A program made the translations under genes and the position numbers. A stretch of 64,000 nt of DNA from Onchidella celtica (taxonomy: Eukaryota > Mollusca > Gastropoda > Systellommatophora > Onchidiidae). Where the stretch lies: positions 25,066,269-25,130,268 of the forward strand of contig OZ007579.1 of assembly GCA_963931925.1 (NCBI GenBank), written 5' to 3'. Positions within the stretch are counted from its first letter, which is position 1, and every line of letters begins with the position of its first letter. The notes below the pieces were generated by a model, which was not told the origin of the DNA, did not search any database, and saw only the letters and a list, made by a program, of their open reading frames with translations. This document shows positions 7,101 through 17,614 of the stretch, piece after piece.

Positions 7101-10100
7101 CTAAAATTAAACGTGAAACATGGGTACACCCCAAAACCTATTATCGTCAGCTCGACTTCGTAGGACGAATCGCGCCAGAGTTGAAAATCTGACTTCACCC
7201 AACAGGCATTCGGTATACGTTGCACATACTGCAACAAAACAAATGTATGAAAGTAGTGTCCATTTCTGCTTATTTTGGTACCCATTTTATTGCGATGGTA
7301 TGTAAGCAAGGAAGTTACAATCATTTGAAGGCGAGAAAACTAGAGCAGCGTTAGCTGAACGCCATCTTGTCAGGCAGGAAAGTGGCTCGATTAGCCTTGC
7401 TGCCACAGTCTTGATGTGACGTTTACAAAATCCTTCAAAGCAGAATCCCGTAACAATATTGTTTCTATGAAATGAGGAAATTCCACTGGCGATGTCAGTG
7501 GTAATGTTCATATTAAATATTTTTCTGAGAATCACCTACAAGCAAAGAGCAGTATACATCCCAATGGGACTAGCATTTGATTATAAGACACACAGAAACA
7601 AATGTCATACCTTTTGAGAACACAGGTGTCTGTCCAGTCAGCTGCTCTAACACTTTGGCTGCTCTTGTCAATCTGTCACCGGACTCTCCCACACAAATGT
7701 TGAGGCACAATTTGCGGATCCTCAGCTCTCGCATAACATTGATTTTGCCTTTCTCTTTGTCCTGTATTGTAAAGAAGTAAAGCATTTAAGATTTGTTATT
7801 TCTAAAAAAAAAAAATTAAATTGCACCATATACATGGGTGAAAGCAACTGATGTTTCAGAAACCTGAAAACCAACATTTCCAAAGGGTTCATTCCAGAAA
7901 CTGAAATTTGAAACTGTCAGTCAAATATATAGGCTGGCAACAAAACATTTACCTGAATTCAGTGGTTCTCTTTTCAGCCTCAGAGTGACTCAGACTGTAC
8001 TTCAGCCAGCAACCAACCATTTTGTCCATACTATTCAACAGTGAATATTACCAGTTCCTTTTCCCTCTTATTATTTTATATTATTGATTATAAATCATAA
8101 TCCAAGTGTCCTACACGGCTGTTTAAATCGCCTCGAAAGCGGTATTCTAGTTGCCGACCGAAATCCCCTGCCCACCTCCCGCGATGCGGTCATAAATCAC
8201 CTGTCAGCCGTGTGCACATCCGTGACGGCATGCCGATCCCTGGCCAGGCCTGAGTAATACGATTCCATCAATTTTCGCATACCTTTGCAACGTGATATCT
8301 TCCGATCTAATGATGCTAGAGCACCATGCGAGATCTCATTTTAAACGTCAGGATTTTACCGACAAGACGATATAATTTTTGCTTCTTACTTTACAAAATT
8401 GTGGAACTTATCGACGGATATTTGCAGTGTGTGTTTTTTAGAGATTGAAATTTGATTTTCAACAGTAAGTCACTTTGATCATCAATATCTTACACATGCC
8501 GCCTTTAATTTCAATATAAAATCTATGTTTTGATAGCACAAACCCCGTGCTGGGGCCATACAGCACAGGGGCGCGTCCCCTGGGTGGCGGATAGAGGAGC
8601 CCCGAAAAAAAAGGGGTTGCACCTAGAAGGTGCCGTGGACCAACATGGCCCGGGCAGATGGGGCTCGTGAGCAATGTCAAGCAACCTATCTAAGAGAAGG
8701 AAAACTCTGACTCCAAACCCGGCTAGATAGAGACCGTAAGCACCGAAAGGCAGTCTAAATAGGAGATGGAAAACTCCGAACTTAAACCTCTGCTGCCTTG
8801 CAGAAGATCCTGACAGATCAAAGGCTAAGGAAGCACATCCTGACAGAAAAGCAGGCCAAAGCCGGAGTCACTGGACCGAAAGGTGCAGATAGACCAGACT
8901 GGTGTAACAACCTTGCCTGAAAACTGCAGTGACACGCACCAACCCCCTAAAAATCATGGACGGACACCAAAAATTTACTAAAAGTTATGGTGTGAAGCCT
9001 GTGGACTCACGCCGGACAGGTGTAGCGCCGGGCCCAAAGGGCCCACCCAAGCGATCTGGTGGTGCCTTACCCTCTTCTTGTGGAACCAGGGGAAGAGGTG
9101 TGAGGTTACGGACGACTGGAACCAATCTTAAAGTGCTACAGTGGAACGCAGAAGGAGTAGCCAAGAAAAAGCTGCCATTAATGCGAAAGCTGTATCAAGA
9201 AAAAGTGGATGTCGCCTGCATACAGGAAACCCATCTCACGGACAACATACGCTTCTCAATAAGAGGATACCAGTGCTTGAGGCAAGATAGGATAACGGGA
9301 CACAAGGGTGGAATCATCATACTAGTTAAAAATGACTACACCATAAAAGATATAGTGATTGACACGGACAACCAGTCAGAACTACAGGGTATCAAGTTAT
9401 ACAAAGACAACTCTGAAATCAGTATTTACAACTGCTATTGCCCACCCAACAAGAAACTATCACTTGAGAAACTAGATATAGGAGAGGAGACATGCTTAGT
9501 ACTGGGTGATTTTAACAGCCACTCCCCAAGCTGGGGATACGATGATCTGAATAAGAGAGGAGAGGAAATGGAAAACTGGCAAGTGGAAACTAAATTACAA
9601 CTACTCTACGATGAAGAGGACCCAGACACATTCTTCTCACGCACATGGAGAACTACCACAAACCCAGATCTCACCTTTGCGTCAGAAGACCTGACTGGGA
9701 AAATACGAAGAGCAGTGCTTCCCCAACTTGCAGGTAGCGACCATAGACCCATACTCACTGAAATAGACTCAAATAAATCTTGCAACCAAGCACCAACTGT
9801 CCCCAGATGGAACTACAAAAGAGCAAACTGGGAAAAATTCCAAAGGAGCACCAACCTTTATTCCACCAAAACAAATTGCAAGTCCAAGAATGTTAATAAA
9901 TCTGCAAGGGAACTCACAGAAGCAATACTGAAAGCCGCAAGGGAAAGTATACCAAGAGAAGCAAGAAAAAACTACATCCCCCTATGGTCTGATGGGCTTG
10001 AGAATCTCACTAATGCAGCAACACAGGCAAGAGAGACAGCAGAAGAAGAACCAACGGATGAAAACATGATCGCCTTCAAAGCAGCAGAGGCCAGACTGAA

Positions 10101-17614: not shown

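Follow-up and report, generated by a model that had tools for sequence, protein, structure and literature searches.

We analysed a 64,000-nucleotide window of the genome of the mollusc Onchidella celtica (contig OZ007579.1, positions 25,066,269 to 25,130,268 of the forward strand), in which positions 8114-16491 make up a single DNA transposon with exact boundaries, starting with CAC and finishing with GTG. It is a decayed, fossil copy of a Chapaev element that was opened by a later retrotransposon insertion, and its transposase begins with a RAG1-like zinc region. The two ends of the element carry the same two boxes at unequal spacing, and this asymmetry is held in five families belonging to four lineages within the one genome. 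We consider it likely that the transposase paired a long end with a short end, and that it did so without RAG2.

Each end was found to consist of an outer CAC box (CACGGCTGTT in the window) and an inner AGTT box (GCGGTATTCTAGTTGCCGA in the window), separated by 15 bp at the left end and by 5 bp at the right end. When a 17-mer of the inner repeat (GGTATTCTAGTTGCCGA) was searched with up to two mismatches, it occurred in the window only at the two element ends (mean of 100 shuffles, 0.00). The element's own genome (G000, 1.14 Gb in 43 contigs) was then searched with the transposase core, and 80 matches were obtained on many contigs, some copies giving two, with many open frames of 900-1000 codons. 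Ends were measured at 43 loci (the window, L009-L048, L051 and L052; L049 and L050 were left out), the family labels of L032, L039, L045, L046, L051 and L052 being assigned from core identity. The end patterns were written after inspection of the ends with the spacer length left free (0-40), and the measurement was repeated in a motif-free way. Both ends together with a perfect 4-bp duplication were recovered at 34 of the 43 loci (family A 22, including the window; B 1; C 3; D 3; E 5), and every one of the 34 was asymmetric in the same sense: the long end preceded the gene and the short end followed it. The nine loci without a duplication-matched end pair were L012, L025, L032, L039, L045, L046, L047, L051 and L052; at L012 the pattern picked a chance outer box 29 bp away, and the usual 5-bp short end was present on inspection. 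The offsets from the end to [TC]AGTT were 34/24 (long/short) in families A, B, C and E.

In the motif-free comparison, an element's two ends matched each other best, without gaps, on diagonals of 10, 10, 10, 11 and 10 bp in families A to E, respectively, so that the two box spacings are about one helical turn apart; the diagonal score was reached by 0, 64, 30, 0 and 0 of 1000 shuffles. Exact family-A ends with a spacer of 3-25 bp numbered 226 in the genome, 114 of them with exactly 15 bp. Among the 100 of these 226 that were listed, 52 were long and 48 short; 38 facing pairs lay less than 12 kb apart, all of them combining a long with a short end, and 24 ends were unpaired. Some facing pairs of family A, again with one end of each kind, were only about 2.0 and 2.55 kb apart and are probably internally deleted copies. 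Subterminal repeats of the forms GGGTCAG/CTGACCC and GACCGGG/CCCGGTC were also seen within 140 bp of the ends in families A-D and not in E, as read in one element per family (L009, L031, L033 and L037 among them).

The families that share this arrangement are well separated. The cores of A and B were 71.7% identical, and comparisons among A, C, D and E gave 38-44%. A tree of 39 rows placed A+B, C, D and E on branches of their own, each of which was joined by a retrieved protein with high support (P0001, P0031, P0014 and P0032, the last from Elysia marginata). When like ends were compared between families, leaving out the close A-B pair, the outer hexamers agreed at 50/54 positions both for long and for short ends and the inner decamers at 56/90 (long) and 52/90 (short), while the long-end spacers agreed at 43/162, about the level of chance. 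The length of the long end was thus kept where its spacer sequence had been lost, which speaks for a constraint on long-end spacing.

We propose that the element moved by cut-and-paste transposition, driven by a RAG1-fold DDE dimer that would leave the 4-bp duplications. The core would recognise and cut at the CAC outer box, and a basic GGQP region, lying in the place of the nonamer-binding domain (NBD) of RAG1, would bind the inner AGTT box. Such a dimer would bring a long end into synapsis with a short one, the two differing by one helical turn, in the way that RAG pairs a 23-RSS with a 12-RSS (RSS, recombination signal sequence), and would act without a RAG2 partner. Within five elements of 3985-4717 bp, an open reading frame (ORF) scan gave no ATG-initiated frame longer than 91 aa outside the transposase gene, a scan that a gene of short exons might escape; a spliced partner would likewise be missing from the proposed machinery. 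A long/short preference is plausible here because unlike ends are favoured by ProtoRAG, which has two-box ends with 27/31 spacing (PMC8289069), and AanRAGL has unequal spacers of 4 and 13 bp (PMC9435367).

The same Chapaev element could also be explained without any pairing rule. Unequal spacing would then reflect end-specific contacts or a 5′ leader or promoter function, passed on by inheritance, and symmetric pairs would work as well. In all families the long end lies upstream of the gene, so orientation is confounded with asymmetry; the tree derives all families from one clade; and invertebrate RAG-like (RAGL) transposases have been argued to be rather insensitive to end asymmetry (PMC7204232). 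On the other hand, simple inheritance sits poorly with a long-end spacer whose similarity is lost yet whose length is constant in four of the five families, and with ProtoRAG, where bipartite unequal ends were tested and the asymmetric pair was favoured (PMC8289069). We regard this explanation as rather unlikely, though deserving of serious attention.

Several observations weigh against a conserved pairing of long with short ends. The five families share an ancestor, so that retention by common inheritance is possible; the ends were measured in a single genome, where the 38 mixed pairs of family A share ancestry and are not independent. Family D differs in its offsets (36/25, not 34/24), the inner match is weak singly in B (64/1000 shuffles) and C (30/1000), and B is represented by one locus. 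Between families, the expected diagonal came out best in only 3 of 10 comparisons of long ends and 3 of 10 of short ends; the short-end spacers agree at 27/72 positions, which exceeds chance, and the identity of the inner decamers is partly built in, as 5 of the 10 positions are the AGTT anchor. A further family, F (L049), showed a left end only, its right end and duplication having been sought and not found. Upstream of its gene the sole CAC[AG]G...[TC]AGTT site at offsets 15-45 lay at offset 34 (38 of 5000 mononucleotide shuffles had one) and the sole downstream candidate at offset 19, and its sister copy C18 began to align about 280 bp before the start codon, apart from 19 bp inside the putative left spacer; F was left out of the asymmetric families. 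For family G (L050) no end was found, the sole upstream candidate being at offset 22. A 13-row profile of the GGQP region (A5) searched against PDB up to E 10 gave no match, the RAG1 NBD included, and the equivalence of this region with the NBD is suggested by a loose structural superposition (root-mean-square deviation 7.2-11.2 in the rows that include it).

The RAG1-like first part and the core belong to one protein, because sister copies in the same genome keep both in a single ORF (955, 964, 939, 908 and 982 aa in families A-E, respectively). The core matched PF06918 (DUF1280) with an E value of 4.8e-15 and 56.2 bits (cut-off 25). Among the 39 homologues of alignment A3, matches at E ≤0.01 were obtained to PF06918 in 39, to PF12560 in 5, to zf-AD in 4 and to RING (zf-RING_UBOX) in 2, and the full RAG1-N-like zinc pattern was present in 18 of the 40 retrieved homologues of at least 750 aa. 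C203/C206 and H495-x4-H500 of the core, which lie between the second proposed catalytic Asp and the Glu, were invariant or nearly so; C-x2-C and H-x4-H zinc motifs have been described for the CMC/Transib/RAG1 group (PMC12730594). A Foldseek search with the core model returned RAG1 for all 43 best matches, and Transib gave a weaker structural match than RAG1. A sequence search of PDB with the window core alone gave nothing relevant, and an NCBIfam search with two proteins nothing useful. Named relatives among the matches listed (the best 120 of 141) were gastropods and one coral, and an Aplysia protein (P0099) was among the homologues. No prokaryotic or viral relatives were found by tblastn of viral_contigs (65 pattern stretches) and genome_contigs (195 stretches), and a viral fold search with the model of P0012 returned a Sylvanvirus protein of 200 aa as a marginal match (E 1.3e-4), the second match being of low probability.

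For the N terminus, PF12560 (RAG1_imp_bd) matched the first frame at E 9.1e-4 with 19.3 bits, under the Pfam cut-off of 23.3, and the single window piece found the RAG1 N-terminal structure 21wb in PDB only weakly (E 0.017). The profile of an alignment of 19 N termini taken from longer ORFs (A4; 6 from the own genome and 13 retrieved) matched 21wb at E 3.9e-9 and full-length RAG1 chains at 1.7e-5. Invariant across the 19 rows were H9, L16, C17, R18, C20, C39, H62, C67, C70, W100, C112 and C115. On this sequence evidence, the N-terminal zinc region is homologous to the RAG1 N terminus. A weak resemblance of this region, the Chapa domain, to zf-AD was observed as well, in 4 of 39 homologues (best E 4.8e-5; compare the N termini of L009, L033 and L037) and in the next PDB match of the profile, chain 7po9 (LD30467p, a Drosophila protein by name; E 0.063), hinting that zf-AD and the RAG1 N terminus may share a common fold. 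Scans of the window pieces and of six ORFs from the own genome found no RING. In the retrieved proteins P0109 and P0115 a RING follows the Chapa domain and precedes the core, an arrangement shared with RAG1, and P0071 has a PF12560 match and extra cysteines at the corresponding place; these three grouped with P0058 and P0076 in the tree (support 92/100).

These features assign the element to Chapaev, of the CMC group. The transposase of Chapaev is DUF1280, which a published tree places with RAG1 (PMC3985635). Hallmarks of Chapaev are duplications of 3-4 bp and termini of the form CAC...GTG (PMC4079192), and Kapitonov and Koonin reported in 2015 that it carries a RAG1-N-like Chapa domain, accompanied by RING in two of its subgroups (PMC4411706). 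The window element has the 4-bp duplication, the CAC...GTG termini, the PF06918 core, the C(2)C and H(3-4)H motifs and the RAG1-N-like zinc domain; the optional RING was not seen in it. The original prediction, made from the letters alone, had described CAC-type ends with a CCTA duplication and a RAG1 N-terminus-like zinc region joined to a CMC/Transib-like transposase. The ends lie exactly where it placed them and are flanked by the duplication, all the motifs it named (GEQGGE among them) are present over three frames, and profile searches bore out both parts, the first with a significant match to RAG1; the intact copies in the same genome keep the two together in one element. It said nothing of the retrotransposon or of the unequal internal spacing of the terminal repeats. 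Its further claim, a new lineage in which a RAG1-N-like module was joined to a CMC/Transib core and which would bear on how the RAG1 N terminus was assembled, did not hold: both parts are real by their profile matches, but their fusion is the published, already known Chapaev architecture (PMC4411706), spread through the longer homologues and five families of this genome. As a claim of novelty it was refuted by the published Chapa domain, and we hold a separate joining event to be very improbable.

A domesticated host gene was also considered in place of a mobile element. Nothing was found in its favour, although several sister copies have open frames exceeding 900 codons. The 80 matches, the precise ends with differing 4-bp duplications, the 226 exact family-A ends and the frame-shifted, interrupted state of the window copy all speak against it, and we give this idea practically no credence.

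The features of the window copy are collected in Table 1. Its transposase gene is spread over three frames and thus has two frame breaks, and the pieces outside the insertion are 98.3-98.4% identical to L009. The insertion is a long interspersed nuclear element (LINE) with one 1299-aa open frame, in which a profile scan found Exo_endo_phos, RVT_1 and RNase_H. Its intact frame, (GAA)n tail and perfect 11-bp duplication indicate that it probably inserted recently. Four sister copies were checked for the insertion site; it was uninterrupted in L009 and L011, and L015 and L018 were without the exact 11-mer. Elsewhere in the window, a 537-aa open frame at 52745-54358 resembles a seven-helix receptor (by eye only), and long open frames of HPSI-type repeats at 32396-33004, 33880-34305 and 50273-50689 are probably non-coding microsatellites.

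Table 1. Coordinates of the Chapaev element and of its parts in the window.
Feature	Position	Strand	Remark
Target-site duplication CCTA, left copy	8110..8113	.	perfect 4-bp duplications at 34/43 loci, window included
Left end, outer box CACGGCTGTT	8114..8123	+	
Left-end spacer, 15 bp, long type	8124..8138	+	
Left end, inner box GCGGTATTCTAGTTGCCGA, TAGTT at offset 34 from end	8139..8157	+	
LINE target-site duplication GATAGCACAAA, left copy	8532..8542	.	11-mer single and uninterrupted in sisters L009, L011
LINE (non-long-terminal-repeat retrotransposon) in transposon 5′ leader, not Chapaev sequence	8543..12848	+	domains, 11-bp duplication, (GAA)n tail
LINE target-site duplication GATAGCACAAA, right copy	12849..12859	.	
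Transposase N terminus, RAG1-N-like zinc (Chapa) domain, first frame	13010..13240	+	
Remainder of Chapa domain, low-complexity linker, GGQP/arginine-rich region, second frame	13185..14249	+	
Transposase core, PF06918/DUF1280, third frame	14161..15882	+	
Proposed catalytic Asp 1, core D114 (GGDHG)	14500..14502	+	nearly invariant in alignments A1, A2; putative role
Proposed catalytic Asp 2, core D184 (GDYDF)	14710..14712	+	nearly invariant in A1, A2; putative role
C-x2-C, core C203/C206 (CLWC), proposed zinc pair	14767..14778	+	both Cys invariant in 35-row A1
H-x4-H, core H495/H500, proposed zinc pair	15643..15660	+	nearly invariant
Proposed catalytic Glu, core E517 (GEQGGE)	15709..15711	+	nearly invariant; putative role
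Right end, inner box, TAGTT at offset 24 from end	16458..16476	-	
Right-end spacer, 5 bp, short type	16477..16481	-	
Right end, outer box CACGGCTGTT	16482..16491	-	
Target-site duplication CCTA, right copy	16492..16495	.	

Opinions differ on whether the 12/23 rule goes back to a transposon or came into being with vertebrate RAG1/RAG2, and unequal ends of the present kind may bear on the origin of this pairing rule of antibody genes. Asymmetric ends as such are already known from Transib, ProtoRAG and AanRAGL. All subgroup I Transibs have them, and inheritance from a bacterial Transib ancestor was proposed in 2022 (PMC9435367); according to a 2021 review, some Transibs are the only known case of 12/23 asymmetry apart from V(D)J recombination, and its recognition is linked to RAG2 (PMC8355894). 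No report of unequal Chapaev ends was found among the matches listed in the open-licence literature searched, and the available text of PMC4079192 does not contain 'asymmetr'; an earlier mention may exist elsewhere. As far as the reachable literature goes, asymmetric two-box Chapaev ends one turn apart across four lineages are new. Asymmetry held across diverged Chapaev families in which no RAG2-like ORF was found would extend the history of asymmetric ends to a third group, and a Chapaev with a RAG1-N domain and a RAG1-fold core would offer a system for testing the requirement for asymmetry directly. We suggest, tentatively and with more doubt than confidence, that the ancestor of the whole Chapaev-Transib-RAG group already worked with unequal two-box ends one turn apart and with long/short synapsis. 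If this were true, the ancestral asymmetry proposed for Transib/RAG (PMC9435367) would move back before the Chapaev split, asymmetry would have been at work without RAG2, and the 12/23 rule would be a retained transposon property, not an invention of domestication.

In comparison with known systems, the element agrees with published Chapaev in its 3-4-bp duplications, CAC...GTG ends, DDE core with C(2)C and H(3-4)H, and RAG1-N-like zinc domain (PMC4079192, PMC3985635, PMC12730594, PMC4411706). It differs in the fixed 10-11-bp spacing difference of its two-box ends, which the available portions of the published Chapaev descriptions do not mention, and in lacking the RING of two published subgroups. 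N-RAG-TP of Aplysia is likewise a mollusc transposon with a protein like the RAG1 N terminus; it was reported to be entirely RAG1-N-like (PMC8355894), whereas here the N terminus is fused to a DUF1280 core in one ORF, and N-RAG-TP may be a partly read Chapaev. RAG-like transposons share bipartite unequal CAC ends, the RAG1 fold and, in many, a RAG1-N-like zinc domain, but they have 5-bp duplications and a RAG2-like gene in place of the 4-bp duplications and one long ORF found here (PMC8289069, PMC9435367). Transib (subgroup I, and some insect members with 12/23-like ends) shares the CAC ends and a DDE core of the same fold and differs by its 5-bp duplications and by having no RAG1-N-like region (PMC8355894, PMC7204232, PMC9435367). 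The 12/23 RSS of V(D)J recombination likewise have an outer CAC box and an inner box, set at two distances that differ by roughly one turn of the helix. The present ends have neither the CACAGTG heptamer nor the A-rich nonamer, and their spacing difference is 10 bp (11 in one family) against 11 in the RSS; the pairing rule is a feature of the RSS and, by analogy, is what we propose for the long and short ends of Chapaev.
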